Assembly: GCF_001423185.1 (NCBI RefSeq)
Contig: NZ_LMOB01000003.1
Location: forward strand, 1-64,000
DNA length: 64,000 bases
Direction: 5' to 3'
Source of the DNA: Plantibacter sp. Leaf314
GTDB taxonomy: Bacteria > Actinomycetota > Actinomycetes > Actinomycetales > Microbacteriaceae
Part shown: positions 8,911-63,086 of the stretch, in pieces
How the letters are laid out: each line of letters opens with the position of its first letter
Numbering within the stretch: the first letter of the stretch is position 1
Made by a program: the position numbers and the translations under genes
Notes under the pieces: generated by a model
Told to the model about the DNA's origin: nothing
Seen by the model: only the letters and a program-made list of their open reading frames with translations
Database searches by the model: none

Positions 8911-8929
8911 CGGGGTACCCGAGACCGGC

Positions 8930-9655: not shown

Positions 9656-9720
9656 CGATGCCCCGTTCGTCCGGCCCGCCCGCGGACGACTGCGACGACC
9701 GCGATTCGTCTCGATTCATT

Positions 9721-9730
9721 ATGACGTCAT
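9721..9730. promoter_or_regulatory. palindrome, candidate GntR operator
   Basis: ATGACGTCAT is a perfect 10-bp palindrome in an AT-rich patch 45 nt before the transketolase ATG and 66 nt before the divergent GntR start. GntR operators are short palindromes around GT-AC cores, which fits. Confidence 0.5.
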
Positions 9731-9774
9731 GATGTCTTGCGTAGCGTTCGACTGACACGACCTCAGGAGAACCG

Positions 9775-11802: not shown

Positions 11803-11817
11803 TCCGGTCGCCGCCGC

Positions 11818-11847
11818 CGCGCTCACCGCTACCAGGCGGTGAGCGCG
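11818..11847. terminator. bidirectional stem-loop between convergent genes
   Basis: CGCGCTCACCGC pairs perfectly with GCGGTGAGCGCG (12 bp, 6-nt loop). The hairpin includes the last codons and stop of the leftward SDR gene, so the coding sequence itself supplies one arm. Confidence 0.65.
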
Positions 11848-12581: not shown

Positions 12582-12645
12582 GGTGTCTCCTTCGGGGACG
12601 GGGAAAACGGGTGCCGGCGCGTCGCCGACCCCCCTGGTGGAGTGA

Positions 12646-45671: not shown

Positions 45672-45848
45672 GTGGAGGGCATCGAGTCCGTCGACACCGT
45701 CCGCAGGACTCTCTTCGCGAACGACCCGGCCCCCGTGCCCTCCGTCTCCGCAACCGAACGCGCGTACCGCCTCGAGGCATTGCAAAGCCTGTTGGGGTTG
45801 GTGCGAAGAAACGTCACTGAGGTCAACTGGTCGAGGCAAACTGGTTGA
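45672..45848 (+). CDS. short open frame, possible gene remnant
   Basis: This is 58 codons from GTG 45672 to a stop at 45846-45848. The middle reads TERAYRLEALQSLLGLVRRN, which looks like a genuine amphipathic helix rather than noise. The last 26 nt overlap the 3' end of the convergent alarmone-synthetase gene, so it may be the 5' part of a gene cut by insertion of that module. No family is assigned. Confidence 0.3.
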   Translation: MEGIESVDTVRRTLFANDPAPVPSVSATERAYRLEALQSLLGLVRRNVTEVNWSRQTG

Positions 45849-46788
45849 CCATTGAATCGATCAGAGCCTCAAAGTCCGATCCCCGAGTCATGGCACTCAA
45901 TTTCGAGGGTCTAGCCGAGGCGCGCTCCGCCACGATCAACGCTTCCGGTTCGAGGTACAGCCAATCTCGCGACTCGACGAAGTCCTCGGAGCCGTACGCA
46001 TGGCGGCCGATGGTATCGGCGATGCGTTGCTCGTTCTCCGCAGCAAAAGTTCGAATGATCTCGACGACACGCGGTCTCTCGTCGATCTTGTAAGAGGTCA
46101 TAAGCGTCTCGAGCAGGCCACTTGGCCGAGTGGCGCGGGAACGCCCATCAATTAGACCGTCGAGAACCGATGTCAGATCCTCGTAGACGCGGGTGTCCTC
46201 AAACTCTGGTTTGACTGCAAGGGCGTCGAGCATGAGATCCACCTCCGAATCGAACAGCTCAGCAAGAACGATGAGACGCAACATCCTACGCTCGAGCTCT
46301 GACGTCAGCTCGATGGGACCTTTGTATCGAACGCGGTGATCCACGATGTACCAAGCGTCAGAGGCCGCAGTGCGGACTTGCACCTCGACCTTAACTGGTG
46401 AACTGCCACTGTCTGTGATGGACGCGTCCCGCAAGTCGAACTGGTTGGACTCATACTTCAGTTCGTCGGGTCGAGAGACGCGCCGGTCGACTTTTGGGTC
46501 CCAGACAGTCTGGCTTTCGAGCAACTCAGTGAATTCGTGCACACCGCGCTTCGTGGGGAAAATTGCCTTTAGTGCCACAAGATCGCCCAGGCTGTCCCAT
46601 GTTCGTGGCGAACTGGGGTTCTTGAATACCTTACCAAGCACGCTGCGGTGGGTCTTAACGCGACCAGACACCACCGCGCCTTTGTCTACACTCCTTGCAA
46701 GCTTCTCGATTAACTCTGTCCATCTGACTAGGGCGGCATCTAGATATGGGCGTTCAGTGAAGTAGCGGTCGGATATCGGATTGGTCAT
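45823..46788 (-). CDS. RelA/SpoT-domain alarmone synthetase
   Basis: This 321-aa protein has an N-terminal RelA/SpoT nucleotidyltransferase domain. The ATP-binding block is RVKTHRSVLGKV (residues 43-54), with GDLVALKAIF (68-77), the Y-x-S loop KYESNQF (111-117) and the catalytic EVQVRT (135-140) leading to HRVRYKG (151-157). No hydrolase domain is present, so it would only make (p)ppGpp-like nucleotides or pyrophosphorylate another target such as tRNA. The C-terminal 150 residues are helical and of unknown type. It starts 2 nt after the stop of the NA37-like gene and has lower GC than its surroundings. Toxin or abortive-infection roles are known for small enzymes of this family; here that is inference. 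Confidence 0.82.
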   Translation of the reverse strand: MTNPISDRYFTERPYLDAALVRWTELIEKLARSVDKGAVVSGRVKTHRSVLGKVFKNPSSPRTWDSLGDLVALKAIFPTKRGVHEFTELLESQTVWDPKVDRRVSRPDELKYESNQFDLRDASITDSGSSPVKVEVQVRTAASDAWYIVDHRVRYKGPIELTSELERRMLRLIVLAELFDSEVDLMLDALAVKPEFEDTRVYEDLTSVLDGLIDGRSRATRPSGLLETLMTSYKIDERPRVVEIIRTFAAENEQRIADTIGRHAYGSEDFVESRDWLYLEPEALIVAERASARPSKLSAMTRGSDFEALIDSMVNQFASTS

Positions 46789-46790
46789 GT

Positions 46791-47816
46791 CTAGCTTTTC
46801 GGCGCTGATCCGAAGCTGACTTTACGCACATCGCCACGCACGATAATCGTTGTGACGCCCGTACTCACATCGGTCTCCACCTGAATCGCGCCACTCTCGA
46901 GAGCTTCGCTGCTGGCCGTGATAACAACACCCGGACCTACAAACCTGAGGCCAGATCCGTGTCCGACAACCAACGACAGGTCTTTGGGAATAACTGCGCT
47001 GGAGACCGCATCAGGTAGAGCGGCGAGGAAATCATCTCGATCATCGATTTCGAGGAACTGATCAGCAAATTCGACGGCTTGAAAACTGTCTGCCGGTGTC
47101 TGCATATAGGAAACGATGGCACCTGCGTAGCGAGCCTTCAATTCAGGACTTGATACGCGTTCGTTCACAAACGAAAGGGCAGAGTCCATGAACTGTTTGG
47201 TTCGAACCTCTGCATCATCGGCGAGTTTGCAACCCAAAAAGCTTGTCAGGAAGAAGTCGGCGAATGCGACGCCATTCTGTTGGTCGACCATCTGCCCATC
47301 TATGGAGCCGGAATCATCATTCAATATAGCGATCTTGTAGACGCGTGAGCTATTCCCAACAATCAATTCATTTAGGTGCTCGAGGTCAAAGTGATCCGCC
47401 TCCCCTGATTCATCCCTCTTAAGTCGCATCCCCTCCTGGTGTTCAGCTTTCAAGATGGCGACCGAAACAGTCGATCCGTCCTCGACGATAGCGACAATCA
47501 GGATGCCGGATGGACTATTCCCAGTTTGGCTCTGATGGAGTAGCTCAGCCAGAGACTGTGATGCAGGGACCAAAGTATCGTGGTCTCCGAGAATTTCGCG
47601 AATGTGGTCAGGGAGTGATCCGCCGAGAACATCATCTTCGATGATCAGTCTGGGATGGCGCAGCGAAAAATCGAGCATGTTTTCTTCGATGAATCGACGA
47701 GTCTCGACCTGAAGGGCCGTCTCCGAGTAGGAGAGAGACACTCGGGAGCTGTCGTCAGCTGAGTACCTTCCCTTTGGAATCTCGTGGATGATGGCCCGGC
47801 GGATTCGAATGGGCAT
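46791..47816 (-). CDS. nucleoid-associated protein (NA37/YejK/NdpA-like)
   Basis: This 341-aa protein shows the family layout. An N-terminal sheet-rich part has ILIVAIVEDGSTVSVAILKAE. The central VAFADFFLTSFLGCKLADDA (near residues 191-210) is the conserved F-x-D-F-L-GC segment of nucleoid-associated proteins. A helical middle and a C-terminal strand region (VRGDVRKVSFG) follow. These proteins bind double-stranded DNA or the folded nucleoid. Here it is the first gene of a two-gene unit with an alarmone synthetase, which suggests a DNA-state sensor coupled to an effector (inference). GAGG lies before the ATG. Confidence 0.72.
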   Translation of the reverse strand: MPIRIRRAIIHEIPKGRYSADDSSRVSLSYSETALQVETRRFIEENMLDFSLRHPRLIIEDDVLGGSLPDHIREILGDHDTLVPASQSLAELLHQSQTGNSPSGILIVAIVEDGSTVSVAILKAEHQEGMRLKRDESGEADHFDLEHLNELIVGNSSRVYKIAILNDDSGSIDGQMVDQQNGVAFADFFLTSFLGCKLADDAEVRTKQFMDSALSFVNERVSSPELKARYAGAIVSYMQTPADSFQAVEFADQFLEIDDRDDFLAALPDAVSSAVIPKDLSLVVGHGSGLRFVGPGVVITASSEALESGAIQVETDVSTGVTTIIVRGDVRKVSFGSAPKS

Positions 47817-49312: not shown

Positions 49313-49325
49313 TAGTGTGATCACA
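49313..49325. promoter_or_regulatory. -10 box overlapped by a palindrome, promoter of the five-gene cluster
   Basis: TAGTGT (49313-49318) is a plausible -10 box. The perfect palindrome TGTGATCACA (49316-49325) overlaps it. A repressor at this site would control the whole cluster. No regulator gene is adjacent. Confidence 0.45.
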
Positions 49326-49351
49326 GCTGGTACAGGTCGGAGGGGGATTCT

Positions 49352-49396
49352 GTGACTGACACATTGACCAAGCCAATCGGATCGTTCGTTGTCTGA
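49352..49396 (+). CDS. 14-codon leader frame
   Basis: GTG 49352 has a strong GGAGGGGG ribosome site 5 nt upstream, but the frame ends after 14 codons (VTDTLTKPIGSFVV) in a TGA. That stop overlaps the TTG start of the next gene by 8 nt. It may be a leader peptide whose translation delivers ribosomes to the weak TTG start. Confidence 0.4.
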   Translation: MTDTLTKPIGSFVV

Positions 49397-50237
49397 GGCA
49401 ACGGCGGCTGCTCCGTGCCGCCACGTAGGCGCGCCATCTGCCGCGCATGTCGAACGAGCGGTGAAGGCTATACAGGGTCTCTATGGACATCCCGAGGTTC
49501 TTGCCTCATACGGCCTTTCTCCCAGCGAGTTCGCGTCGGTCTTGCCTGCGGCAATCGAGACAGCGCGAGGCAGCATGAGCGCCAGTACTTCAAATCGACG
49601 CCACTTTCTCGCGAGCGTGCTCTCGCACCTCGTCGAGACCGGCCTCGCCTCGAGCTTGACGAGTCCGTCATACGGTGCCGACACGGTGTATCGCTTGGAG
49701 GTGCCCGGGACGGGACCCATCGCGATCATCCAGAAGGGCTGCCCCGATGGTGCCCACAGCAGTAGCAGATGGACAGCTCCAGAATGGGCACAGGAGGTGT
49801 ATCTGTGGTGGATGTGTTCGAGCATGAAGTCGCATCCAGGGGAGCATGTAGTGAAAGGCATCAATCGGCTGCGCCAGCGATTTGAATCGGATCCGGCGTG
49901 GCGTCTGACTGGGGTGATCTTCCACAATGAACTGTGCGGCTCAGTGAATCGCCCGTGCCCGAAGCAGTCGAAGGCCATCGAGATAGCTGGTCGGTCCGTT
50001 CCACCTCCCTGTGTGTACCTGGTTCCCGAAAGCGACGAGGCTTCGTCCACGTTGAATTGGACCGGCGAGAGGAAAGCCGTGTTTCCCGCGATATTGATGC
50101 GCGCATTCGGCATCGATGATGTGGAACAGCCCTTCTTCGAGGGCTACGTCGGTTTTCAACGGCGTAACAACGCAGACTTGCGCACTTCCGTTACTATCCG
50201 ATTCGGAGCAGGCCGCTCCTCGACTTACAGGAGCTGA
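49389..50237 (+). CDS. unknown protein, first gene of the restriction-like cluster
   Basis: This 282-aa protein is not recognised. The segment GADTVYRLEV..IAIIQKG (residues 97-117) has Asp and a Q-x-K-like pair at a spacing that could suit a PD-(D/E)xK nuclease. GVIFHNELCG near 175 and PPPCVYLVPE near 207 look like conserved core strands. There are eight cysteines. The start is TTG 49389, coupled to the leader frame; a GTG at codon 25 is the alternative. It ends 2 nt before the ParB-like gene. A nuclease or target-recognition role is inference from context. Confidence 0.55.
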   Translation: MSEATAAAPCRHVGAPSAAHVERAVKAIQGLYGHPEVLASYGLSPSEFASVLPAAIETARGSMSASTSNRRHFLASVLSHLVETGLASSLTSPSYGADTVYRLEVPGTGPIAIIQKGCPDGAHSSSRWTAPEWAQEVYLWWMCSSMKSHPGEHVVKGINRLRQRFESDPAWRLTGVIFHNELCGSVNRPCPKQSKAIEIAGRSVPPPCVYLVPESDEASSTLNWTGERKAVFPAILMRAFGIDDVEQPFFEGYVGFQRRNNADLRTSVTIRFGAGRSSTYRS

Positions 50238-50239
50238 TC

Positions 50240-51562
50240 ATGACCAATCCGCTGCTCGACCAAGAGCGTGTGAACTTCCTCGCTGCCCGCCAGGTCCTAG
50301 CCACTGCGCCGCTTCCAGCATGGCCGCGTACGTCGAAGCAGCTGAACCTCGTTGAGTTAGAGGTGGACTGGGTAAAATTCTCCACCCTGAATCACCGAAC
50401 GCGCGCAGAGCAACGAGCCGTTGTCGCGCTACAGGGCGATACCACGCTCTTCAGCGCCGACCCCTTCGGTTTCGCTGCACAAGAGGCACAGTACGAGATC
50501 CTGCGAACCCAGGAGGGATTCGCAGAACTTAGGTCCGACCTCGCGAATAGGGAGCAGCAAGAGCCCGCGATTGTGACGGCGGACGGCGTGCTGATCAACG
50601 GCAATCGTCGTGCTGCGGCGCTTCGCAGTTTGTACATCGACGAGGATCGCCCGGACGCGCGATACATCCGTTGTCTCGTTCTGCCTGCCGACGCTACAGT
50701 TGCCGAGCTTGTGGATCTCGAAACCGAGCTGCAGATTGCCCGGGATTTCAAGCAAGAGTATGGGTGGATCAATGAGGCGCTTCTGGTTGAGGAGCTGTAC
50801 GAACGCGAGAGTCGTGACTACTCGCGTGTCGCGACGAGAATGCACAAGGATGTGTCGGCAGTTCGTTCCCTCCACGAGAAACTTCAGCAGGTGCATCAAT
50901 TGGTCAGTATGTCTTCAGGTAGTCGAAACTACATTGATTTCAATGACAACGAGTCGGCCTTTGACGAACTAGCGAAACACGTTCGAAACAAGCAGCCAAT
51001 CGAAGCGGAGTCGGTGCGGTCTGTCTATTTTCTAGGAACCCTGGCAAATGTTAAGTATCGAAAACTCCGTCACCTTCGTCGTCCAGACGCGGCGGAGTTG
51101 GTGAAGGCTGAAATAGAGAGTGATCCCTCCCTCAGCAAGCTCCTTGCCCTAGCCGAAGAAACAGATCGAATCGGGGGCGAAGCGCAGGACGTGCTTGATG
51201 CGATCCTTGGGGAGGCCCCGGCAGCGGGTCCGCTAACAGCGCTCCTGGGTTTAGTTGCAACTAGGCGAGTTGACGAAGCCGTGGAACTCGAAGGCGGGAC
51301 GGTTGTCGAGATGGCTGCAGTCCTCGAGAGCCTGGCAAGCGCCGTAGTTGCGGCGGCCGACGAGGCCGAGGAGGATCAACGTGACCAGAGTGCGCAGGTC
51401 GCTCCGCTGGCCCGTCTGGATAAGGCGATAGTTGAGGTTGAGCGTGCAACGGAGGGCTTGGCAAGAGCTCGAGCCTTCGACGACTTCGACGAAACCGGGC
51501 TCGCTTCACGGATCACAAGGCTGCAGGCTCTCTTAGGGAATTTCGCGGAAACACAATCGTGA
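50240..51562 (+). CDS. ParB/Srx-like nuclease-domain protein
   Basis: This 440-aa protein carries a ParB-like core with GVLINGNRRAAALRSL (residues 116-131), the conserved G-N-R-R of ParB/Srx domains, which bind or hydrolyse nucleotides. A long helical region follows (residues 170-330), and the C-terminal 100 residues are charged and coiled-coil-like. AGGAG precedes the ATG. Partition-type ParB has a helix-turn-helix after the core; here no clear one is visible. It overlaps the helicase gene by 4 nt (GTGA), so the two products probably work together. Confidence 0.75.
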   Translation: MTNPLLDQERVNFLAARQVLATAPLPAWPRTSKQLNLVELEVDWVKFSTLNHRTRAEQRAVVALQGDTTLFSADPFGFAAQEAQYEILRTQEGFAELRSDLANREQQEPAIVTADGVLINGNRRAAALRSLYIDEDRPDARYIRCLVLPADATVAELVDLETELQIARDFKQEYGWINEALLVEELYERESRDYSRVATRMHKDVSAVRSLHEKLQQVHQLVSMSSGSRNYIDFNDNESAFDELAKHVRNKQPIEAESVRSVYFLGTLANVKYRKLRHLRRPDAAELVKAEIESDPSLSKLLALAEETDRIGGEAQDVLDAILGEAPAAGPLTALLGLVATRRVDEAVELEGGTVVEMAAVLESLASAVVAAADEAEEDQRDQSAQVAPLARLDKAIVEVERATEGLARARAFDDFDETGLASRITRLQALLGNFAETQS

Positions 51563-53439
51563 TCAGAATAGAGCTTGGCTCACACTCTCGACCTACTGTG
51601 AGGTTGTGCCGAGAGGGAACCTATAACGCCGGTGCTTGGGCACATTTAGGCGCCGTACTTGGGCGCGGCGTAGTAGGCGGCGATGCCTCTGTCCTCGAAG
51701 TCCGAGAAGAGGTGTTCCTGTCCGAGCTGTCGAGCGTGCGCGAGGCGAGGTCATTTTATGGGGAGGACCTCTCCTTCGGGCCGAAGATCACGTCGCAGCT
51801 CACGACGCTCGCGCAAGATCGAGTTACCCGAGAACGAGCTGTGGCGAGCAGCGTAAGCGGATCATTGGAGTCCATCGAAAGCGAGCTCCTAGATGCGGGA
51901 TTTGTGCGGACTCTAAAGCCCTTCCAATTGTTGAATCTTGCCCGAATATCCCAGCTGCCTCACGGCGCTGATTTCTCTGTGCCTGGAGCCGGGAAGACGA
52001 CCGTCGCTTTGGCGAACTTTGCGTTGCAGCGGGCTCGTGGTGAGGTGTCTCGACTACTGGTCGTAGGACCGATCGCTGCGTTTGAGGCGTGGAAGACAGA
52101 CGCTGCGGCCTGCTTCGATTCAAGTCCAATGATCTCTGTTCATCTCGGCAGCAATTCGGCTATCTCGCAAAGAACTGACATTCTCTTGACTAATTACAAT
52201 CGTGTTGCCAGCGACTATGAACGCATCAGATCGTTCGTAGCATCTGGGCCGACACATTTGATTCTCGATGAGGCGCACAGAATGAAGCGTGGAGAAGCAG
52301 GCGTTCATGGTAGAGCTGTTCTGGATCTCGCCTATGTTGCCCGGAGACGTGACATCTTGACCGGCACGCCAACTCCGCAGGGGGCTTTCGACCTAGTTGC
52401 ATTGATGCGGTTCCTATATCCTGGCCAAGATCGCTCGATTCTGCCACCTAGTACCTACGATGAGTCGGCCAGCCGGGAGGCGGAGGTAGTTCAGGCGGCA
52501 GGGCAGGCGATAGGCAAATACTTTGTGCGAACCCGCAAGGCTGATCTGGAGATACCCGAGCCGGAGTGGAACGTCGTTCGACGTCCGATGGGTGCGATAC
52601 AGGCCGCGATCTATGATGCGCTCAAGGGTCGGTATCGGGGTGAGTTCGAGCTACCCAAAGATTCTCGCCGCAATTTCGACCGGTTGGGTCGAGTAGTAAT
52701 GTACTTATTGGAGGCGGCAGTGAATCCTGCTCTTCTCACGGCGGGTTCCGATGTGGCCGACGAGACGGGGTTTGTCCATCCGCCGATTGAGCTGGACGGT
52801 TCGGAACCACTGAGTCGACTCTTAGAGAATTACGCGCAGTTCGAAACCCCCTGGAAGTACGAGTACGTACGTGAGGCTGTAGCGGCGGCGGCTCGGTCAG
52901 GTCGAAAAATTCTGGTCTGGACTACATTCGTGCGCAACATTCGGGTACTTGCTGAAGAACTCAGCGCGTATAACCCCGCGATTGTTCATGGCGGCGTGCC
53001 CGCCGAGGATGCCGTCGCCGCGGGGCAAACCAGCCGAGAGAGCGAACTGAATCGCTTTCGCTACTCCCCGGATTGCACGGTTCTGCTAGCGAACCCGGCG
53101 GCCGCGGGAGAAGGAATCAGCCTTCATCATTGGTGCCACGAAGCAATCTATTTGGACCGTACTTTCAATGCAGGTCACTTCCTTCAAAGCCAAGATCGCA
53201 TTCATCGGCTCGGTCTAGAGCCCGAGACGGTCACGCGGTTCACGCTTCTTGTTAGCGAGGAATCGATCGATGACTTTGTCGACGAGCGATTGCGCGAAAA
53301 GGTAGCCGTTCTATCGCAACTGATGAATGACCCCGGACTTGTTCGCGTCGCATTGCCCGAAAGTGACCAATATCATGATGTCCCAGCAGTGGAATCGGAC
53401 GACATGTCGGCGGTGGCTTACCACCTAGTTGGCCGGTAG
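51559..53439 (+). CDS. SNF2-type DEAD/DEAH helicase
   Basis: This 626-aa superfamily 2 ATPase has Walker A PGAGKTT (residues 142-148), DEAH (237-240), LTGTPTP (267-273), motif V GEGISLHHW (517-525) and motif VI QSQDRIHRLG (543-552). The last, with R-x-H-R-L/I-G, is typical of SNF2 translocases. The N-terminal 120 residues are unassigned. SNF2 enzymes move along double-stranded DNA without full unwinding. The gene overlaps the ParB-like gene and lies 3 nt before the nuclease-like gene. Confidence 0.88.
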   Translation: MIRIELGSHSRPTVRLCREGTYNAGAWAHLGAVLGRGVVGGDASVLEVREEVFLSELSSVREARSFYGEDLSFGPKITSQLTTLAQDRVTRERAVASSVSGSLESIESELLDAGFVRTLKPFQLLNLARISQLPHGADFSVPGAGKTTVALANFALQRARGEVSRLLVVGPIAAFEAWKTDAAACFDSSPMISVHLGSNSAISQRTDILLTNYNRVASDYERIRSFVASGPTHLILDEAHRMKRGEAGVHGRAVLDLAYVARRRDILTGTPTPQGAFDLVALMRFLYPGQDRSILPPSTYDESASREAEVVQAAGQAIGKYFVRTRKADLEIPEPEWNVVRRPMGAIQAAIYDALKGRYRGEFELPKDSRRNFDRLGRVVMYLLEAAVNPALLTAGSDVADETGFVHPPIELDGSEPLSRLLENYAQFETPWKYEYVREAVAAAARSGRKILVWTTFVRNIRVLAEELSAYNPAIVHGGVPAEDAVAAGQTSRESELNRFRYSPDCTVLLANPAAAGEGISLHHWCHEAIYLDRTFNAGHFLQSQDRIHRLGLEPETVTRFTLLVSEESIDDFVDERLREKVAVLSQLMNDPGLVRVALPESDQYHDVPAVESDDMSAVAYHLVGR

Positions 53440-53442
53440 AAT

Positions 53443-54396
53443 ATGCTTCCCACTCACGGTTCGGTGATGAGTGTCTTTCTTCTTGCTAATGTTGCGACTC
53501 ACGGTAGGGCTGCCAATGATGCAGATTGGGTTGGCCAGGCGCAAAAGCGGAGCTCGTTTCTTGCTTCCGCGATTGATCACGAGCCCACCGCTCGTTTACT
53601 GCGTACAGCTGGCTTGGTCGGGTCCCAGGAAGAAGTCAAGCCGAGCTCCGCTTTGCGAGCAGTCTCCTTCGCGGCAACTCGGTCTTGTTTGATCGCAATT
53701 GCAAGTCTAATGCTCCAGATTTCTCCGCCAGACTGGCTCCCATCGGCGACTGTCGGAGGGCGTTTCCGCGAGGCGCTCGTCCCGACGGCGGATCTGCAGT
53801 CTCTTGAGTGGCTGCGTCCGGACCTTGATCGACTGCTTGTTGGTGCCATGGCCGGGAGCAGTGAACGCATAGAACTCCTTCGCTTGGGATTAGGACGTGC
53901 CGCAGAGTTAGTTGTGCTCCATATGTTGAGAGCAGGACATAGTCAGCCTACTCATGTGTCAGAAGTTTCTGACCATTACGGATACGACATAGAGTCGAGT
54001 TTTCCTGAGACCCAACAGTGGGAGGTAAAGGGCTGCTTCACGGAGGCAGCCGGTCGTTTCCACATAAGCAGAAATGAATTCGAGACGTGCAAACTGTTCA
54101 GAGACAGTTGGAAGATCGTGCAGGTTCAGTTCGCTGGTGCCGCCGTGACTGCCCCGGCTCTGACAGAGGCGCACGTAATCGGGGTCCGGCAGGCCGCGGC
54201 ACCGGATGTGATAGCTCTTGCTCCCGCTGAGTCTCCGACATTCCGCTGGGAGCAGAGCGCACAGATGACCTTGCCCGCAAGTCGATGGACGTCGAGTGCC
54301 ATGGGCGGGACTGCTGGTCTGAGCCTCCCAAGTCTGTACGAGCTAGGGGCCGAGGCGGCCGACCTGCGCTTGCTTCGCGTGGGCAGACGGGCTTGA
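53443..54396 (+). CDS. DUF3883-like protein with PD-(D/E)xK-type motif
   Basis: This 317-aa protein has a helical N-terminal 140 residues and a C-terminal nuclease-like domain. That domain contains GRAAELVVLHML (Glu near 155), GYDIES (Asp 182) and WEVKG (Glu 194, Lys 196), the order E...D...ExK expected of restriction-type nucleases and seen in DUF3883. The segment FHISRNEFETCKLFRD matches the conserved helix after the core. In this cluster it is the best candidate for the cutting subunit. ATG 53467 is an alternative start. Confidence 0.7.
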   Translation: MLPTHGSVMSVFLLANVATHGRAANDADWVGQAQKRSSFLASAIDHEPTARLLRTAGLVGSQEEVKPSSALRAVSFAATRSCLIAIASLMLQISPPDWLPSATVGGRFREALVPTADLQSLEWLRPDLDRLLVGAMAGSSERIELLRLGLGRAAELVVLHMLRAGHSQPTHVSEVSDHYGYDIESSFPETQQWEVKGCFTEAAGRFHISRNEFETCKLFRDSWKIVQVQFAGAAVTAPALTEAHVIGVRQAAAPDVIALAPAESPTFRWEQSAQMTLPASRWTSSAMGGTAGLSLPSLYELGAEAADLRLLRVGRRA

Positions 54397-54468
54397 AGGC
54401 GGAAGCGCAGGCGCAAGCCGGAATCGGTGGTTCACGCCACGAGATCGCTCGATGTCGGCACTGTCGCA

Positions 54469-54474
54469 TAGTGT
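54469..54474 (+). promoter_or_regulatory. -10 box of a leaderless promoter (methyltransferase)
   Basis: TAGTGT ends 6 nt before the GTG at 54481, with no ribosome site. The hexamer is the same as that proposed for the promoter of the whole cluster at 49313. Confidence 0.5.
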
Positions 54475-54480
54475 ATCCCT

Positions 54481-55647
54481 GTGGATAACGTGACGTCGAT
54501 CGATGCGGCGAGACCCAAGGTTCTGGAATTCTTCGCCGGGATCGGGCTTGCGCGGCTGGGTCTCGAGTCGGCAGGGTTTCGGGTAGCTTGGTCGAACGAC
54601 TATGAGTTGAGCAAGCGATCGATGTACGAGGCCCACTTTGGTATGGGCGACTCGAGTCATACGTTTCGCCTTGGTGACATCGCGGGCGTAACGGCGGACG
54701 AACTGCCGTCGGACGCAAGTTTGGCCTGGGCTTCTTCTCCGTGCACCGATCTCTCGCTTGCAGGGGGACGAGCGGGGCTAGCCGGTAAGGAGTCCGGCAC
54801 TTTTTGGGAGTACATACGCCTCCTGCGCGAGCTCAAGACGAAGGGGGCGTTGCCTGCGGTTGCAGTGCTCGAGAACGTCGTCGGTCTGGCGACGTCGCAC
54901 GGCGGGGACGACTTGGTGGCTGCAATCTCGGCATTCAACGAACTCGGGTATTCCGTCGACGTTCTAGTTATCGATGCCAGGCGATTCGTCGCACAGTCAA
55001 GACCTCGACTTTTTCTTGTCGCAGTGACAGACCCTTCTGACGATGTCGACAGCGTTTCGGACCTGCGGCCAGACTGGCTTCAGTGGGTGTTTGGTGATGC
55101 AAACCTCCGCACTCATCGAGCGGCCTTGCCCGCTGCGCCCGCGGCGAAACTCAATGGTTTCGGTGAGCTGACCGAAGCTATGCCCCGTGATGATGCGCGA
55201 TGGTGGGATAGCGAGCGCACCGCGCGCTTCATCGGTTCGCTCTCCGCGATGCAGCTCGCGCGCATTACGGAAATGCAGAAGATGGCTGGAAGCCGGTTCC
55301 GCACCGCCTATAGACGAACCAGGAACGGTGTTGCAATGTGGGAAGTCCGGCCTGACGATATATCTGGATGCCTCAGAACGGCGCGCGGCGGTTCGTCGAA
55401 GCAAGCGGTCGTCCGGCTGGGTGATGGCCAGATGCAGGTTCGTTGGATGACACCAAGAGAGTATGCGCGATTGATGGGGGCTGATGATTACCGGCTCGAC
55501 GGCGTACGTACTAACCAAGCCTTGTTTGGGTTCGGTGATGCCGTGGCCGTCCCGGCGGTCCGCTGGCTGGCTAAAAACTACCTAGTGAAGGCGCTCAGCG
55601 GTGGGAGCGACTCTATGCGTCCCAGCGTGGATTTTGCACATCGATAG
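54481..55647 (+). CDS. DNA (cytosine-5) methyltransferase
   Basis: This 388-aa protein methylates cytosine at C5. It shows motif I EFFAGIGLARLGLESAGF (residues 16-33), the catalytic Cys in SSPCTDLSLAG (motif IV, Cys 88), ENVVGL (motif VI, 131-136), QSRPRLFLVAV (motif VIII, 172-182) and the C-terminal motif X NQALFGFGDAVAVPAVRWLA. The target recognition region lies between. It is the last gene of the cluster, 84 nt after the nuclease-like gene, and has its own leaderless promoter. That would allow methylation to be established independently, as in restriction-modification systems (inference). Confidence 0.92.
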   Translation: MDNVTSIDAARPKVLEFFAGIGLARLGLESAGFRVAWSNDYELSKRSMYEAHFGMGDSSHTFRLGDIAGVTADELPSDASLAWASSPCTDLSLAGGRAGLAGKESGTFWEYIRLLRELKTKGALPAVAVLENVVGLATSHGGDDLVAAISAFNELGYSVDVLVIDARRFVAQSRPRLFLVAVTDPSDDVDSVSDLRPDWLQWVFGDANLRTHRAALPAAPAAKLNGFGELTEAMPRDDARWWDSERTARFIGSLSAMQLARITEMQKMAGSRFRTAYRRTRNGVAMWEVRPDDISGCLRTARGGSSKQAVVRLGDGQMQVRWMTPREYARLMGADDYRLDGVRTNQALFGFGDAVAVPAVRWLAKNYLVKALSGGSDSMRPSVDFAHR

Positions 55648-56317: not shown

Positions 56318-56477
56318 GGTGTGGGCGAACTGAACCTAGGCTCTTGTGAAGGCCGTAGTTTTGTCGGAGGGCCGGTGCTGAGTCCTTTGCCGAAATGGCC
56401 GACGCCACCTTGTCTCCGGCGATTGTGTTCTGACAACGCGCGTGACCCACCCGCACGATCACATGAAAGGCCCGCAC

Positions 56478-59400
56478 GTGGACGCTTCTGAACTCAACTC
56501 CGCCGTCGGCCAGGGGCTCGAGCAGCTTGGGTTGGGCCTTCGGCCCATCGTCGAGGGTGCGTTCGCCGAGGCGGTGCCCGGTGTCGAGTGGACTCGGATC
56601 GTCGAGCAGAAGGATCGCGCGGCCGGGATCGGGCACGGGCGGTACTCGGCGACCGACGTGTCGCTGATGCTCCGGGCGATGACCGAACGGATCGGGGAAC
56701 TGTGGTACCCGTTCGACCGCGTGCTGTCGCGGAGCGCTCGCGGGTATGCCAGTGAACTTCGGGAGGTTCGAAACGCCTGGGCGCACAACGCGGGGTTCAC
56801 GGAGCAGTCTGCGTACCGGGCTTTGGACTCGATGCAGTTGTTGTTGGAGAGCGTCGGGGCCGCGGAGCAGGCTGCGGTTGTGGGGGAGTTGAAGGGGCGG
56901 GTGTTGAGCCCTTCGACAGGCTCAGGGACCGAGACGGGTGCGTTGACGAAGACGGCGAACGAAGACGAGATGGGCCCTTCGACAGGCTCAGGGACCGGAG
57001 CGGTCGCGTCGACAGGGTTGGCCGACGGTCGCGAAGCGGAAGATGGGCAGAGCGCCGCAGGCGCCATTTCCGTTGACGGCGCCGCAGGCTCCTCGTCTGC
57101 AGCAGACGCCCCCGCCTTCGTCGCCATCCGCGTCAGCGCGACGCCGACGCTCAGCTACGCGATGGCGCACTGCAGCATCGCGGTGATCGACGAGATCGTC
57201 CTCGAGAACCACGGCGGGGAACGCCGGGCGGCGTCCGTCGAGATCGACGTCGTCACCGCCGACGGTGCCCTCGCCGACACCAAGGTGCTCCTCGCCGACC
57301 TCGGCGAAGACCGCACCACCCTCCTCCGCAGCCCCGAAGTCCTCCTTGACCCACGCCGCATGCTCCTCGTCGAAGAACAGCGGCCCGGCGTCATCCGGGT
57401 CACCGTCCGCGACGCCGCAGGCACCCAGCTCGGCGCCGTCGAGAGCCCCGTCACCGTGCTCGCGTCCAACCAGTGGATCGCCGCACCCGTGCAGCTCGGC
57501 CTCGAACTCCTCGCCGCCCACGTGCAGCCCAATGCCCTCGTTGTCAGCGAGCTCATGCTCGAGGTCTCCGACCTCCTCGAGCAGCAGACCGGAAACAGCT
57601 CCCTCGCCACCTACCAACTCGACGACCCCGCCCGCATCGACGCCATCGTCGCGGCCGTCTGGGACGCCGCCCGCGCCCGCGACATCCGCTACGCCGAACC
57701 GCCCGCCAGCTGGGGCCAAAGCGGCCAGAAGGTCCGCACCCCCGAGGAAGTCCTCACCAGCCACCTCGGCACCTGCCTCGACACCACCATCCTGCTCGCG
57801 TCCGTCCTCGAAGCCATCGGCATCCACCCCCTGCTCTGGCTCCTCAACGACCACATCTTCCTCGGCTACTGGCGCGTCCAGACCACCCTCGACGTCGTCG
57901 CCAGCACCGACGTCTCCGAAGCCGTCAACTCCCTCGAACTCGGCCGCATCGGCGTCGTCGAGACCACCATGCTCACCGGCACCTCCGCGACCTTCGCCGA
58001 CGCCTCCCGTCGGCCCCATACCGAACACCTCGCCGGCTCGCTCGACGACTTCATCGGCATCACCGACGTCGTCCAGGCCCGTCTCCGCAAGATCTACCCG
58101 CTGCCGAGCCGCCGCATCAACGCCGAGGGCGAGCCCGTGGTCACCCTCTACCAGGCACCCGAAGCCCGCGCCCTCACGCAGGACGCCCCGGCCACCGCCG
58201 AGTCGACCGCCGCCGGCCACGGCCCCGACGTCCCGAAGCGCGTCTCCACCTGGAAGAACGCCCTCCTCGACCTCAGCCTCCGCAACAAGCTCATCAACTA
58301 CACCGACCGCTCCGGCTTCGAACTCGCCGTCCCCGGCCCCGCGCTCGGGCGCCTCGAGGACAGCATCAATCACGGCACCCCGCTCACCCTCGTCGCCTCC
58401 GACAGCGTCGCCACGATCGACCAGCAGCGCGGCATCCGCTTCGGCCGCGACCTCGACGAGAGCGACCGCATCACCTTCCTCGACGACAAGAAGAGCGCCT
58501 TCATCGACGTCACCCAAGCCGCCTACCCGACGAAGCTCCGCGCCCTCGCCTACAAGGCCAAGACGATCGTCGAGGAGACCGGCGCCAACAACCTCTACCT
58601 CGCGTTCGGCATGCTGAGTTGGCGCTTCGGCGACCGCGACCTCCGCTCACCCCTCGTGCTCGTGCCCGTCACGCTCACGACCACGAGCCGTGGCTCCTCC
58701 TACCGCCTCACCCTCGACGAGGCCGGCTCGTCCACGCCCAACTACTGCCTGCTCGAGAAGCTGCGCCTGAGCTTCGGCCTCGAGATCCCCGGACTCGCCA
58801 ACCCCGTCGAGGACGGCTCCGGCATCGACCTCCCCGCCGCGTTCACCGCCGTGCGCCAGGCGATCCTCGACGCCGGCCTCCCGTTCCGCGTGGAGGAGAC
58901 GGCGTCGCTGTCGATCCTCCAGTTCGCGAAGTACCGGCTGTGGAAGGACCTCGACGAGAACTGGGAGACGCTCAGCCGCAACAGCCTCGTCGACCACCTC
59001 ATCAACTCGCCGCTCGAGGCCTACGCCGACCCGACGCCCGCGCAGACCGACACCGACCTCGACCGCCTCGGCCTCGACTGCCCGGTCGCCGCCGACTCGT
59101 CGCAGCTCGACGCCGTCGCCGAAGCGGTCGTCGGCCGCACCTTCGTGCTCGAAGGCCCTCCCGGCACCGGCAAGTCGCAGACCATCACCAACCTCCTCGC
59201 CCGCTCGCTCGCCGAGGGCAAGAAGGTCCTGTTCGTCGCCGAGAAGCGTGCGGCGCTCAACGTCGTGAAGCAGCGACTCGAAGACGTCGGACTCGGCGCG
59301 TTCTCGCTCGACCTCCACGACAAGGGCGCCAGGCCCAACGTCGTCCGCGCGCAGATCAAGACCGGCCTCGACCTCCGCACCAAGGCCGACATCGATGCGC

Positions 59401-62400
59401 TGAGCACCAACCGCGAGCTGTCCGAGTCCGGCCTCCGCACCCTCACCCGCTACGCCGATCGCCTCCACGAGGTCAACGCCGCCGGCTTCTCGCTCTACTC
59501 CGCGCGGAGTCGCCTGCTCGCGATGGACCACGACCTCGTCCCCATGGCGATCCCCGAGCAGCTCGTCGCAGCCGGTACGCCCGAGGCCTTCGAGGAGCTG
59601 CGGCAGGTGTTCCGCGAGCTGCCCGAGCGCTCGGATCTCGCGCGCCCGAGCACGACCCACCCGTGGGCGTTCCTCGACGGCCCGTCGGCTCCCGGGCTCG
59701 ACGCCGCGACTGTCCAGCAGCTCGCCCGCGCGATGGACGCCGCCCTGGCCTCGACGCTCGACGCCGGCCTCCCGATGGACGCCCTGCGCCTCGCGTCGCG
59801 ACCCGATCTCCTCGGCCTCTGGTCGACCGCCGTCGCCGCACCGCGCCTGCCGATCGGCGCGCTAATGGCCGGAACCAGGCCCGAGGACTTCAGCCGGCTC
59901 GACGAGGCTCTCGCTGCCGCCGAACAGCTTCGCGACGCCCAGGCCGAGTGGCGCTCGACCTTCACGCCAGCCATCCTCGACCGCGACATCGCCGGCCCGC
60001 TTCACGCCGCCGAGCAGGCTGCCGCGTCGAGCTTCTTCGGTCGCAAGAAGCGGCTCCGGGCCGCGCTCGCCCAGCTGAGCGACGTGCTCGCGGTCGACGC
60101 GACCTCGTTCAAGGTGAAGCAGCTCGTGCCACAGCTCACCGAGGCGAAAGCCGCGCAGGACCGCCTCGTCCAGCTGCGCGGCACGCTCCGCTCCACAGCC
60201 CTCCCGCTCGTCGGCGACCGCTGGAACCCACTCGTCGAGCCGACCCAGCCGGTGCGCGAACTGCTCGGCTGGTACCGCTGGCTGTCGGAGGGCTTCCGTC
60301 TCCCTGGCACGCCCGACGACGCGTTCATCACCGCCGTCCGCGACCACTACGCGACGACCCAGCCGTCGCAGGAGGCAGCCCAGGCGCTGACGACGCTCGC
60401 GAGCACCTGGAGCGAGTTCCTGCGGATTGCGTCCGTCACCACCGAGCGCCTGTCTGCGTGGTCGGGTGGCGAGGGCTTCCTGCAGGCCTGGTGGTCGACG
60501 CGCGACGCCCGCCGCCTCGACGCCGCCGAGCCCGTCGTCCTCGAGCGCTGGCTCGACCTCGTGCGGGTCATCGAACCGCTCCGCACCCACGGGCTCGACG
60601 ACGTCCGCGCTGCGATCCTCGCCGGTCGCATCGAGACCGAGGACGCGACGCTCGCCTTCGAGAAGGGCCTCGCGCAGGCGTCGATCGACGAGCGCGAGCG
60701 CACCACGACGCTCGACGCCTTCGACGCCACCGCACACAACCGCAGCGTCACCCGTTTCACCACGAGCGTGAAGGCCGTGCGTGAGGAGCTGCCGCGGGCG
60801 ATCCCGGCGTCGGTACTCGGGCTGCGGACGTTCAGTTCGCAGTCGGAGAGCGGTCAGGTCGGCGGGCTGCGTCGCCAGATCGACCGTCAGCGCGGCGGCA
60901 TGAGTGTCCGTGCGCTGCTCGAGAACTTCGGCGAGCTCATCACGCAGATCATGCCCTGCACGCTCGCGAGCCCGGAGTCGGTCGCGCGGTTCTTCCCGGC
61001 CGCCGCCGAGCTGTTCGACATCGTCGTGTTCGACGAGGCGTCGCAGATCCGGGTCGCCGACGCGATCGGGGCGATGGGGCGTTCGCGCTCGGTCGTGGTC
61101 GTGGGCGACAGCAAGCAGATGCCGCCGACGACGTTCGCGGAGGCCGGCGCGACGATCGACGACGAGGCCGACTTCACGAGCGAGGTGCTGCAGGACGAGG
61201 AGTCGATCCTGTCCGAGTGCGTGCAGGCGCGGGTGCCGAGCAAGTGGCTGTCGTGGCACTACCGCAGCCAGGACGAGTCGCTCATCGCGTTCTCGAACCA
61301 CCATTACTACGACAGTCAGTTGTCGTCGTTCCCGGCGCCGTTCGTGGGCGCGGGCGACGGTGGGGTCGAGGGCCACGGGCTGGCATTCGTGCGACTCGAC
61401 GGGCAGTTCGAGCGCGGCGGCCGAGGCAAGTCGCTGCGGACGAACCCGGTGGAGGCACAGGCGATCGTCGAGGAGATCACCCGCCGTTTCGCCGCTTCGC
61501 CGGATGAGACGCCGTCGCTCGGCGTCATCACCTTCAACGCGCAGCAGCGGACGCTCATCGAGGACCTGCTGCGCGACAGCACCGACCCGCGGATCGCGAC
61601 GGCGCTCGACGAGCAGGACGGGCTCTTCGTCAAGAACCTGGAGAACGTGCAGGGTGATGAGCGCGACACGATCCTGTTCTCGATCGCGTTCAGTGCGAAC
61701 GAGAAGGGCGTGATCCCGCTGAACTTCGGGCCGCTGACGCGAGCTGGTGGCGAGCGGCGGTTGAACGTCGCCGTGACGCGGGCGCGGCGACAGGTGGTGC
61801 TGTTCGCGAGCTTCGACCCGTCGGAGCTGCGCGCGGAGCAGACGTCGTCGATCGGCATCAAGCACCTGAAGGCGTATCTCGAGCTCGCGCAGCGGGGGAG
61901 CGACGCGGCCGGTGAGGACGGTCGTCGTCAGGCGATCATCGACCGCCACCGCGACGAGATCGCCGACGAGCTGCGGTACGCCGGGCATGCCGTTCGGACG
62001 GATGTCGGGTTGTCGGACTTCCGCGTCGACATCAGCATCGCGACAGAGGCGGAGCCGGACCGACCGCTCGTCGCGGTGCTGCTCGACGGGGCGTCGTGGC
62101 GTGAGCGACGGACGGTCGCTGACCGTGACGGACTGCCGATCGAGGTGCTGAGTGGCCTCATGCGGTGGCCGGGCGTCGAGCGCGTGTGGTTGCCGGAGTG
62201 GCTGCACCACCGCGAGGAGGTGCTTGACCGGTTGGTCGCGGCCGTTGAGGCTGCAGGGGAGCGGGCTGCTGCGGGGCGTGCGGTGGACGCACCTGTTACC
62301 GACGAACCGGACCAGACCGAGGTGACTGCCGGCGGCAGCGAGGACGCCGTCGACGAGTCCGCCGCGGGTGCGGATGCGGTCCCGCCGGTGCGGAGTGCGC

Positions 62401-63086
62401 GCGTTCGGGAGTGGTCGGAGCGGCTGGCGTCGCTGGAGACCCTGTCGGAGTTCCGTGACCGCAAGGTCGGTTCGGCGCAGTCCGCGGAGGCGGCGCCGGA
62501 GACGGATACGTCGGCGCGGCATCCGGAGCTGTCCGAGTACCAGGCCTGGGACGCGCCCATGCTGGGCTCGATCGAGGTGCTCGACCGCTTGCCGGGTCGG
62601 ACGTCTGTTGTCGCGGTGCAGGGTGCGATCCGTGCGGCGGTGGAGGCCGAGGGGCCGATCCATCTGACGCGTCTGGCGAAGCTGGTCGCGGGTGCGTTCG
62701 GTCTCGATCGGGTGGCTGGGTCGCGGGCGAAGTCGATCCTCGACAAGGTCCCGGCCGAGTTCCTCGGTCGCTCTGACGAGCCCTTCGCTTGGCCGACGGA
62801 GATCGACCCGCTCACGTGGCGAGGAGCGCGTCAGTCCGCGGCGGACGCGCCTCGTGCGATCGAGCACATCTCCCTGGTGGAGATCGCGAACGCGATGGCG
62901 ATCGCCGCGGAGCAGTCCGCCGGTCTCTCGCCCGACGAGCTCCGTCGCGAGACCCTCGCGATCTTCGGCGGCAAGCGTGTCACCGCCGCGATCGGTGCCC
63001 GCCTCGACGAGGCCCTCGAGTTCGGTTTGGCTTCAGGGCGTGTTCGCCGGAGCGGCGAGACGATTCTGGAGGGCGTGTTGTCGTGA
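56478..63086 (+). CDS. giant HEPN-transglutaminase-like-DUF4011-SF1 helicase-nuclease-like protein
   Basis: This protein is about 2202 aa. A Swt1-type HEPN domain (residues 10-130) carries the R-x4-H motif RNAWAH (98-103). A linker follows whose two PSTGSGT stretches (145-151, 167-173) are copies of the dispersed repeat. A beta domain and a transglutaminase-like segment with HLGTCLDTTILLAS and NDHIFLGYW (430-465) come next. A DUF4011 region begins WKNALLDLSLRNKLINYTDR (590). The superfamily 1 helicase has GPPGTGKSQT (892-901), DEAS (1515) and LNVAVTRARRQVV (1760). A nuclease-like region contains RVDISIA..VAVLLDG..WPGVERVWLPEW (1830-1905), and a DUF3320 tail follows. GTG 56478 is preferred (AAAGG 7 nt upstream). 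Related DUF4011-helicase-nuclease proteins are reported anti-phage factors, as I recall; its role here is inferred. Confidence 0.85.
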   Translation: MDASELNSAVGQGLEQLGLGLRPIVEGAFAEAVPGVEWTRIVEQKDRAAGIGHGRYSATDVSLMLRAMTERIGELWYPFDRVLSRSARGYASELREVRNAWAHNAGFTEQSAYRALDSMQLLLESVGAAEQAAVVGELKGRVLSPSTGSGTETGALTKTANEDEMGPSTGSGTGAVASTGLADGREAEDGQSAAGAISVDGAAGSSSAADAPAFVAIRVSATPTLSYAMAHCSIAVIDEIVLENHGGERRAASVEIDVVTADGALADTKVLLADLGEDRTTLLRSPEVLLDPRRMLLVEEQRPGVIRVTVRDAAGTQLGAVESPVTVLASNQWIAAPVQLGLELLAAHVQPNALVVSELMLEVSDLLEQQTGNSSLATYQLDDPARIDAIVAAVWDAARARDIRYAEPPASWGQSGQKVRTPEEVLTSHLGTCLDTTILLASVLEAIGIHPLLWLLNDHIFLGYWRVQTTLDVVASTDVSEAVNSLELGRIGVVETTMLTGTSATFADASRRPHTEHLAGSLDDFIGITDVVQARLRKIYPLPSRRINAEGEPVVTLYQAPEARALTQDAPATAESTAAGHGPDVPKRVSTWKNALLDLSLRNKLINYTDRSGFELAVPGPALGRLEDSINHGTPLTLVASDSVATIDQQRGIRFGRDLDESDRITFLDDKKSAFIDVTQAAYPTKLRALAYKAKTIVEETGANNLYLAFGMLSWRFGDRDLRSPLVLVPVTLTTTSRGSSYRLTLDEAGSSTPNYCLLEKLRLSFGLEIPGLANPVEDGSGIDLPAAFTAVRQAILDAGLPFRVEETASLSILQFAKYRLWKDLDENWETLSRNSLVDHLINSPLEAYADPTPAQTDTDLDRLGLDCPVAADSSQLDAVAEAVVGRTFVLEGPPGTGKSQTITNLLARSLAEGKKVLFVAEKRAALNVVKQRLEDVGLGAFSLDLHDKGARPNVVRAQIKTGLDLRTKADIDALSTNRELSESGLRTLTRYADRLHEVNAAGFSLYSARSRLLAMDHDLVPMAIPEQLVAAGTPEAFEELRQVFRELPERSDLARPSTTHPWAFLDGPSAPGLDAATVQQLARAMDAALASTLDAGLPMDALRLASRPDLLGLWSTAVAAPRLPIGALMAGTRPEDFSRLDEALAAAEQLRDAQAEWRSTFTPAILDRDIAGPLHAAEQAAASSFFGRKKRLRAALAQLSDVLAVDATSFKVKQLVPQLTEAKAAQDRLVQLRGTLRSTALPLVGDRWNPLVEPTQPVRELLGWYRWLSEGFRLPGTPDDAFITAVRDHYATTQPSQEAAQALTTLASTWSEFLRIASVTTERLSAWSGGEGFLQAWWSTRDARRLDAAEPVVLERWLDLVRVIEPLRTHGLDDVRAAILAGRIETEDATLAFEKGLAQASIDERERTTTLDAFDATAHNRSVTRFTTSVKAVREELPRAIPASVLGLRTFSSQSESGQVGGLRRQIDRQRGGMSVRALLENFGELITQIMPCTLASPESVARFFPAAAELFDIVVFDEASQIRVADAIGAMGRSRSVVVVGDSKQMPPTTFAEAGATIDDEADFTSEVLQDEESILSECVQARVPSKWLSWHYRSQDESLIAFSNHHYYDSQLSSFPAPFVGAGDGGVEGHGLAFVRLDGQFERGGRGKSLRTNPVEAQAIVEEITRRFAASPDETPSLGVITFNAQQRTLIEDLLRDSTDPRIATALDEQDGLFVKNLENVQGDERDTILFSIAFSANEKGVIPLNFGPLTRAGGERRLNVAVTRARRQVVLFASFDPSELRAEQTSSIGIKHLKAYLELAQRGSDAAGEDGRRQAIIDRHRDEIADELRYAGHAVRTDVGLSDFRVDISIATEAEPDRPLVAVLLDGASWRERRTVADRDGLPIEVLSGLMRWPGVERVWLPEWLHHREEVLDRLVAAVEAAGERAAAGRAVDAPVTDEPDQTEVTAGGSEDAVDESAAGADAVPPVRSARVREWSERLASLETLSEFRDRKVGSAQSAEAAPETDTSARHPELSEYQAWDAPMLGSIEVLDRLPGRTSVVAVQGAIRAAVEAEGPIHLTRLAKLVAGAFGLDRVAGSRAKSILDKVPAEFLGRSDEPFAWPTEIDPLTWRGARQSAADAPRAIEHISLVEIANAMAIAAEQSAGLSPDELRRETLAIFGGKRVTAAIGARLDEALEFGLASGRVRRSGETILEGVLS
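56908..56931 (-). repeat. dispersed repeat inside the giant gene, copy 8
   Basis: GCCCTTCGACAGG followed by CTCAGGGACCG, the consensus in inverted orientation. Read in frame it encodes PSTGSGT. Confidence 0.85.
56974..56997 (-). repeat. dispersed repeat inside the giant gene, copy 9
   Basis: The same 24 bases as the copy at 56908, 66 nt further on (22 codons), so the frame is kept and PSTGSGT is encoded again. Confidence 0.85.

Follow-up and report, generated by a model that had tools for sequence, protein, structure and literature searches.

The five genes g1 to g5, located in the first 64,000 nucleotides of contig NZ_LMOB01000003.1 of Plantibacter sp. Leaf314 (this whole stretch being the window), can be read, at somewhat better than an even chance, as a methylation-protected, ATP-driven restriction machine that would use a pseudo-endonuclease as site reader. 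The best-supported reading of the window locus is that it represents the minimal five-gene form of this machine. In the proposed chain of events, the methyltransferase g5 would methylate a short DNA site and mark self DNA, and g1, seemingly derived from a Type II endonuclease that partners the methyltransferase family of g5, would bind the unmethylated site without cutting. Binding of g1 would let the ParB protein g2 engage the DNA, probably as a nucleotide-gated clamp; it would also recruit the SNF2 motor g3, which would move on DNA with ATP and deliver the NOV_C nuclease g4, the putative cutting subunit, and the predicted outcome would be restriction of phages or plasmids. The original prediction, made from the letters of the DNA, had suggested a modification-dependent system loaded onto unmethylated DNA, two statements that point in opposite directions; the genetics agree better with a system in which self DNA is protected by the mark of the host itself.

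All five genes are encoded on the plus strand at 49389-55647 with intergenic gaps of 2, -4, 3 and 84 nucleotides, an arrangement that the list of open reading frames (ORFs) confirms as originally described. The cluster start then placed at 49313 had to be corrected, as this position is not in the frame of g1 and translation from it runs through seven stops; the true start is a TTG at 49389.

The first protein, previously listed as unknown, is g1 (49389..50237, +, 282 amino acids (aa)), which matches the PADLOC Type II restriction endonuclease model REase_II PDLC03501 (E = 4e-18, 63.5 bits) and has no match in Pfam, NCBIfam or a PDB sequence search. By sequence comparison it is a divergent paralogue of the Type II endonuclease of the PDLC03501 family, here called g1'. 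The motif acid is replaced in g1, which reads IIQK where the g1' family has IDLK. This (D/E)xK acid is absent in 120/120 aligned g1 sequences, while the Asp is present in 119 of 120 g1' sequences, these being the closest of 3143 and at least 67% identical to the query. Six cysteines (C10, C118, C143, C183, C190, C208) are common to the g1 and g1' families and possibly form a metal site.

Two other kinds of endonuclease-like protein stand beside ParB and SNF2 genes in more distant loci (loci are referred to by L numbers). L065 and L069 have, in front of ParB, a 154-aa protein similar to BglII/BstYI; the L065 protein reaches E = 1.5e-5 and 25.2 bits against Pfam BglII (cut-off 26) and only E = 0.47 against BstYI, and the L069 protein E = 3.9e-6 against PADLOC REase_II and E = 2.9e-5 against the BstYI structure. 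The aligned motif is KDRVAIEVQFGK in BstYI, KDRVGLCLQLGN in L069 and QDDLAFQLQTGN in L065, with the Glu, which is catalytic in BstYI, lost in both loci; a close copy of L065 is found on the Paracoccus plasmid L076. In L033, an archaeal bin (Cenarchaeum by title) that may be contamination, a PmeII-like protein has TNLTAKM where the annotated Aeromonas PmeII has TGIDLEF, with Asp and Glu lost, in a comparison of one sequence at 22.7% identity; we infer that these acids are catalytic in PmeII. Together with g1, three endonuclease lineages next to the ParB-SNF2 core appear to have lost acidic residues.

The domain calls made originally for the remaining four proteins, a ParB-like protein with G-N-R-R, an SNF2 helicase, a nuclease-like core and a cytosine-5 (C5) methyltransferase, are all substantiated. 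The ParB-family protein g2 (50240..51562, +, 440 aa) consists of a ParB/Noc-type N domain, a helix-turn-helix (HTH) region and then long C-terminal helices. Its Pfam match, to ddrB-ParB (E = 0.027), is below threshold, and a ParB profile searched against PDB sequences returned coiled-coil noise only and no ParB, which speaks against the assignment; the ParB identity rests on the predicted fold. The AlphaFold model (predicted local distance difference test score 92) finds Noc, KorB, ParB and Spo0J among its best 30 Foldseek matches, with probabilities of 0.96-1.00, E values of 3.5e-4 to 0.06 (two under 0.001) and template modelling scores by target of up to 0.61, and a ParB/Noc-type fold with an HTH region is what this model predicts. 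Ten divergent family members share 13 invariant columns and the GNRR box, which two distant homologues have as GNTR. A PADLOC match of g2 to JetC3 (17.3 bits over a helical stretch) was taken as coiled-coil similarity and discarded. The public record names a Microcella homologue of g2 (P0058) 'phosphorothioation-dependent restriction protein DptG', which looks like a misannotation.

The motor and nuclease candidates retain their motifs. The SNF2-family ATPase/translocase g3 (51559..53439, +, 626 aa) matches PF00176 (64.5 bits) and Helicase_C (PF00271, 27.5 bits), both above cut-off, and ResIII at 24.5 bits (cut-off 22.5), lower than its SNF2 score; the columns G-x-GKT, DE-H and QS..RI.R are invariant across six divergent homologues. 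The NOV_C/DUF3883 nuclease g4 (53443..54396, +, 317 aa) matches PF13020 at 35.9 bits (cut-off 22.1), and PADLOC candidate PDC-S36 at 23 bits. Its E...D...ExK site is intact, with E155, D182, E194 and K196 kept in at least 90% of 30 homologues.

The C5-cytosine DNA methyltransferase g5 (54481..55647, +, 388 aa) scores 140.9 bits against PF00145 (cut-off 22) and 551 bits against PADLOC MTase_II PDLC03243, and is the only PF00145 match found in a search of the window genome. In 32 of the 33 compared loci, the retrieved flanking sequence includes a g5 homologue (METHYLTRANSFERASE), whose position and orientation vary: upstream, downstream, on either strand; the exception is L003, which ends at g4 at a contig end. 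This proximity is not background, as any C5 methyltransferase at all is found in just 22 of 40 genomes (own and relatives), and g5 is the putative cognate methyltransferase of the other four genes. The signature Y-x-RTR...E-x-R-x-D...GCLRT..GGSS-x-Q in the C-terminal half is kept in at least 90% of 32 methyltransferases whatever the endonuclease partner, which suggests that the methyltransferases of the compared loci share a single target or have closely similar ones. Some of the signature residues may serve catalysis instead of target reading; class medians of identity over residues 240-330 (0.36-0.72) are close to those of the catalytic half (0.42-0.70). The GIY-YIG enzymes Eco29kI and Cfr42I recognize CCGCGG. 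This site as the target is unsupported; two GIY-YIG partners scanned matched PF01541 only and no PADLOC or NCBIfam model.

The compared loci derive from a ParB alignment scan of a genome collection (84,980 species), which gave 33 loci, and from four plasmid records of PLSDB. L018 (the L037 locus of Mesorhizobium mediterraneum) and L034 (the window) were dropped, L039 was merged with L036 (one plasmid), the distant loci L030-L033 were set aside and the window was added, leaving 33 loci for comparison. Among these, g1 and ParB are present in 33/33, SNF2 in 32 (L029 ends early) and NOV_C in 30 (L026 and L029 end early; L017 is without a recognizable copy). In the gene-order check proposed with the original prediction, order and strand of g1-g2-g3-g4 recur across phyla and are kept in all 30 loci that hold the four genes, which is not chance; in L037, a transposase gene stands before NOV_C. 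The five-gene unit first described is a coherent, recurring defence-like set, but the conserved operon, the cassette, comprises four genes with g5 as a near-constant neighbour. By record titles, hosts include Actinomycetota, a Verrucomicrobiales bin and Proteobacteria of the alpha, beta and gamma classes, and protein matches include Granulicella, an acidobacterium. Acquisition of the cassette is sporadic, since g2 occurs in one of 60 genomes (own and relatives), its own alone, and in three of 396 genomes of its phylum, counting its own; in the other two the match is a distant homologue. Four plasmids (PLSDB) carry the cassette.

Pairwise distances among g1-g4 correlate with Mantel r of 0.76-0.93 and with those of the methyltransferase at 0.52-0.65; the values are 0.87 for methyltransferase and Vsr and 0.65 for methyltransferase and GIY-YIG, with shared phylogeny inflating all of them. 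This pattern is as expected if cassette and methyltransferase unit are two modules that travel together and exchange partners. A GIY-YIG homologue occurs in 16/33 loci, DUF4928 in seven and g1' in four (L023, L027, L038 and a Kozakia plasmid), L038, which has both GIY-YIG and g1', being counted twice; on the Kozakia plasmid, g1' is in two pieces and a short GIY-YIG gene falls below the count threshold. The one DUF4928 partner scanned matched PADLOC REase_II PDLC03543, and Vsr is found in 27 loci. No endonuclease of a known partner family is present in the window, L004, L012, L019 and L024, and likewise in L003 and L029, which are truncated; in the first five the cassette is the sole recognized candidate restrictor. 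Most loci carry the endonuclease of a Type II restriction-modification (R-M) unit beside the cassette, of which the window locus is by this comparison a reduced form. A tblastn search of the window with GIY-YIG, DUF4928, HNH, g1' and Vsr queries gave no Vsr or endonuclease remnants, the DUF4928 search covering the window only; in the window genome Vsr was not found, the g1' query matched g1 alone and the GIY-YIG query, run without a positive control, found nothing.

The ParB-SNF2 pair extends beyond the cassette. A broader ParB profile was run at E<=0.001 on two phyla, each centred on one locus: in that of the gammaproteobacterial bin L012, nine of 398 genomes matched, four with E below 1e-20, and in that of the Bacteroidetes bin L031, eight of 296, seven with E below 1e-20; both counts include the centre genome. 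Twelve distant loci were examined, namely 10 non-centre matches and two actinobacterial loci; G611, G661, G795 and G814 (E above 1e-8) and G892 were left out. ParB and SNF2 adjoin in 10 of the 12, the exceptions being L066 and L068 (which stops at ParB); among the ten, L069 has a split SNF2 gene and L072 an interrupted one. Scans of the protein that follows SNF2, covering nine of these ten, give NOV_C above the Pfam cut-off in 9/9. In 11/12 loci (not L066), a probable DNA methyltransferase gene is found no more than about 7 kilobases (kb) away: the g5 profile picks out C5 enzymes, for the most part with low scores, in L043, L044, L065, L068 and L071-L074, xPPY-type enzymes occur in L065 and L069 (PADLOC-confirmed) and L067 (motif only), and L070 has a D12-like gene whose start is similar to the Pfam-confirmed D12 gene of L031. 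An HNH-type enzyme follows NOV_C in L071, and in L033 ParB, SNF2, NOV_C, the EcoO109I/PmeII-like protein and an N4/N6 methyltransferase stand in a row. Beside the L033 genes, at 9246-13724, lies a 1492-aa protein with TIR, NACHT-like and HEAT parts. L030 was dropped as the ParB-like similarity is inside an 884-aa ORF without SNF2; L032 is weak, with ParB-SNF2 on a 4.8-kb contig and no methyltransferase seen, and L066 offers a ParB-like ORF (8460-10028, 137 bits) with no SNF2 or methyltransferase recognized nearby.

On plasmids, 13 inspected loci (L077-L089; 12 from Bacillota, one from Streptomyces; several are close relatives and not independent) have adjoining ParB and SNF2 genes in 13/13 cases and an annotated methyltransferase in eight. 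The order Type III mod, res, ParB, SNF2 is found in L081, L082, L083 and L085, L081 (1-8755) being an 8.7-kb Lacticaseibacillus paracasei plasmid with just these four annotated genes, and a C5 methyltransferase is accompanied by Vsr or a Sau3AI-type enzyme in L078, L079 and L087. ParB of L081 matches 67 plasmid records, 52 of them from Enterococcus, with at least 80% of ParB covered in 14/67. In the Enterococcus plasmids L084 (3899-6493) and L088 (3889-6498) a 'sigma factor-like HTH' protein of about 865 aa directly precedes ParB-SNF2, and in the Exiguobacterium plasmids L086 (10691-14044) and L089 (10817-14179) a 'hypothetical' protein of about 1120 aa follows it.

In the proposed reading, ParB-SNF2, usually with NOV_C, would be a general effector core with interchangeable reader and methyltransferase, which would account for its presence beside R-M specificities of both Type II and Type III. 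More tentatively, at a little less than an even chance, ParB-SNF2(-NOV_C) may be a plug-in R-M effector of bacteria and at least one archaeon, an unnamed R-M type built on a ParB nucleotide switch that would take its specificity from repeatedly and independently retired Type II endonucleases or from Type III Mod-Res.

Several observations weigh against a restriction machine with a pseudo-endonuclease reader. The closeness of the 120 g1' sequences to the query and the single distant PmeII comparison narrow the evidence for acid loss, and g1' of L027, one of two g1' copies in a smaller alignment, is also without the Asp (AVK), so that acid loss alone is insufficient proof of an adaptor role. Foldseek with g1 is weak, the best match being an acetyl-CoA carboxylase at E = 0.03; a second structural look found several endonucleases at similar Z, in weak support. 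L068 is a possible counter-example to acid loss, as its REase_II neighbour has an intact motif, but this gene and a C5 methyltransferase are on the opposite strand, the ParB match is weak (38 bits) and the contig ends there. No endonuclease-like gene was recognized in L031, L043, L044, L067, L070 and L072-L074, where the neighbours were partly scanned, so a pseudo-endonuclease is not universal in distant ParB-SNF2 loci; L044 has no NOV_C after SNF2, and five of the 13 plasmid loci (L077, L084, L086, L088, L089) show no annotated methyltransferase in gene tables that are incomplete. Residue D98 is kept in 115/120 g1 sequences, which would suit an active enzyme: g1 could be an unusual nuclease with a rearranged site (D98, Q115/K116, D120, H123, E136) in a helicase-assisted two-nuclease R-M system. 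D98, K116, D120, H123 and E136 vary little or not at all among g1 sequences, and Gln takes part in some endonuclease sites, as in the E-x-Q of BglII/BstYI. An active g1 is nevertheless improbable, as none of the 120 g1 sequences has an acid where g1' carries its Asp, and the endonuclease-like proteins of L065, L069 and L033, in the same setting, have lost acids too.

The co-occurrence with complete R-M units bears on the role of the cassette as a whole. As 26/33 loci also hold a Type II endonuclease of a recognized partner family (GIY-YIG, DUF4928 or g1'), a further point against the cassette as restrictor, it could be accessory to classical R-M: the endonuclease would cut first, the cassette would move along and degrade cut or unmodified DNA or disassemble stalled complexes, and the window form would have lost its endonuclease and be decaying. 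The placement of ParB-SNF2 directly after Type III mod-res in four plasmids agrees with such a role. We consider it unlikely, though less so than an active g1, since five loci including the window keep methyltransferase and cassette without an endonuclease of a known partner family, and the window shows no sign of decay, its five genes being open, with intact motifs in g3, g4 and g5. Least probable of all is a selfish or regulatory module in which ParB and SNF2 maintain or control the R-M unit with no direct restriction. Carriage of the cassette on four plasmids, a ParB fold that is that of partition and repressor proteins, with KorB among the best Foldseek matches, and the proximity of wider-family copies in Exiguobacterium to ParA genes would be compatible with it; a conserved nuclease and an SNF2 motor, on the other hand, are unexpected in a partition locus, no ParA is among the genes scanned at the window cluster, and the annotation of the four plasmids shows none immediately next to the cassette, the ParA gene of the Kozakia plasmid lying about 1.3 kb away.

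If the restriction machine with a retired endonuclease as site reader is real, it would constitute a new ATP-dependent R-M architecture ranging from Actinomycetota to an archaeal bin, would give ParB nucleotide switches, so far familiar chiefly from the segregation of chromosomes and from DUF262 nucleases, a part in self/non-self discrimination, and would show restriction enzymes recycled as catalytically dead DNA readers. It would also account for genes annotated as 'partition protein', 'hypothetical protein' or 'DEAD/DEAH box helicase' beside methyltransferases.

With respect to the surroundings, the GC content at 46-56 kb is 0.54-0.63, below most of the window. Directly after g5, at 56442-63086 (+), a 2214-aa protein with Swt1-like HEPN, DUF4011, AAA, REase_MTES_1575 and DUF3320 domains matches the NCBIfam anti-phage ProA model (1766 bits, cut-off 1500) and is, by this match, a second defence gene adjoining the cluster. 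At 45823-47816 (-), a RelA/SpoT-domain protein (PADLOC candidate PDC-S33, E = 5e-7) adjoins an NA37/YejK-like nucleoid protein, a pair that is possibly another defence or toxin unit.

In agreement with the original view of an uncharacterised system, no model of PADLOC-DB 2023, NCBIfam 2026 or Pfam names the gene set, and no description was found in a literature search covering open-licence papers, with preprints outside it. DISARM, Zorya I, Dpd and BREX are likewise multi-gene defence sets that include an ATPase of SNF2 type or a related one. Their core proteins are not visible, as anticipated for DISARM, BREX and Dpd: the PADLOC, NCBIfam and Pfam scans gave no PglZ or BrxC match among the proteins scanned and none to DrmB, DrmC or DpdA, and ZorA/B had no match in PADLOC and NCBIfam. 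Scores of g3 against DrmD (32.8 bits, cut-off 610) and ZorD (15.4, cut-off 1500) in NCBIfam, against DrmA (19.6 bits, on g3 only) and against DpdE in PADLOC (28.5 bits) are low, those to DrmD, ZorD and DpdE reflecting helicase similarity only, and the DISARM DrmMII methylase model scores g5 at 93 bits, well below MTase_II. The Druantia type II model DruM2 (PDLC00028) gives g5 349 bits, but DruE, DruF and DruG are not among the matches listed for eight proteins (for g5, the best 25 of 46). Nor are HsdR, HsdM, HsdS, Mod or Res of Type I/III R-M among the PADLOC matches listed for the five window proteins, and, as to ParABS, the scanned genes of the cluster include no ParA, no search for parS having been made.

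Closer relationships exist with Type II R-M, whose cognate DNA methyltransferase has a putative counterpart in g5, by the evidence of PF00145 above cut-off and a nearby gene in 32/33 loci. A Type II unit of PDLC03501 (g1') and a C5 methyltransferase has the same endonuclease family, at a distant 63.5 bits, and the same methyltransferase family as found here, but g1 differs in its missing motif acid and in the ParB, SNF2 and NOV_C genes linked to it. GmrSD, BrxU and SspE, which combine a DUF262 ParB/Srx NTPase with a nuclease domain, also tie a ParB/Srx-type nucleotide-binding domain to DNA cleavage, as described in PMC10952713; g2 differs in belonging to another ParB branch (GNRR, Noc-like, with an HTH region), and the cluster in its separate SNF2 and NOV_C proteins and its own methyltransferase. 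The nearest published analogue found is the MORC R-M operon class (PMC2292703). MORC/paraMORC operons resemble the cassette in their SWI2/SNF2 helicase (one group), mostly cytosine methylases, Vsr and nucleases of restriction endonuclease fold. 'ParB' is absent from the main text of that paper, and none of the five window proteins has a GHKL/HATPase match in Pfam; the MORC operons centre on GHKL ATPases, in the place of which g1-g5 have ParB.

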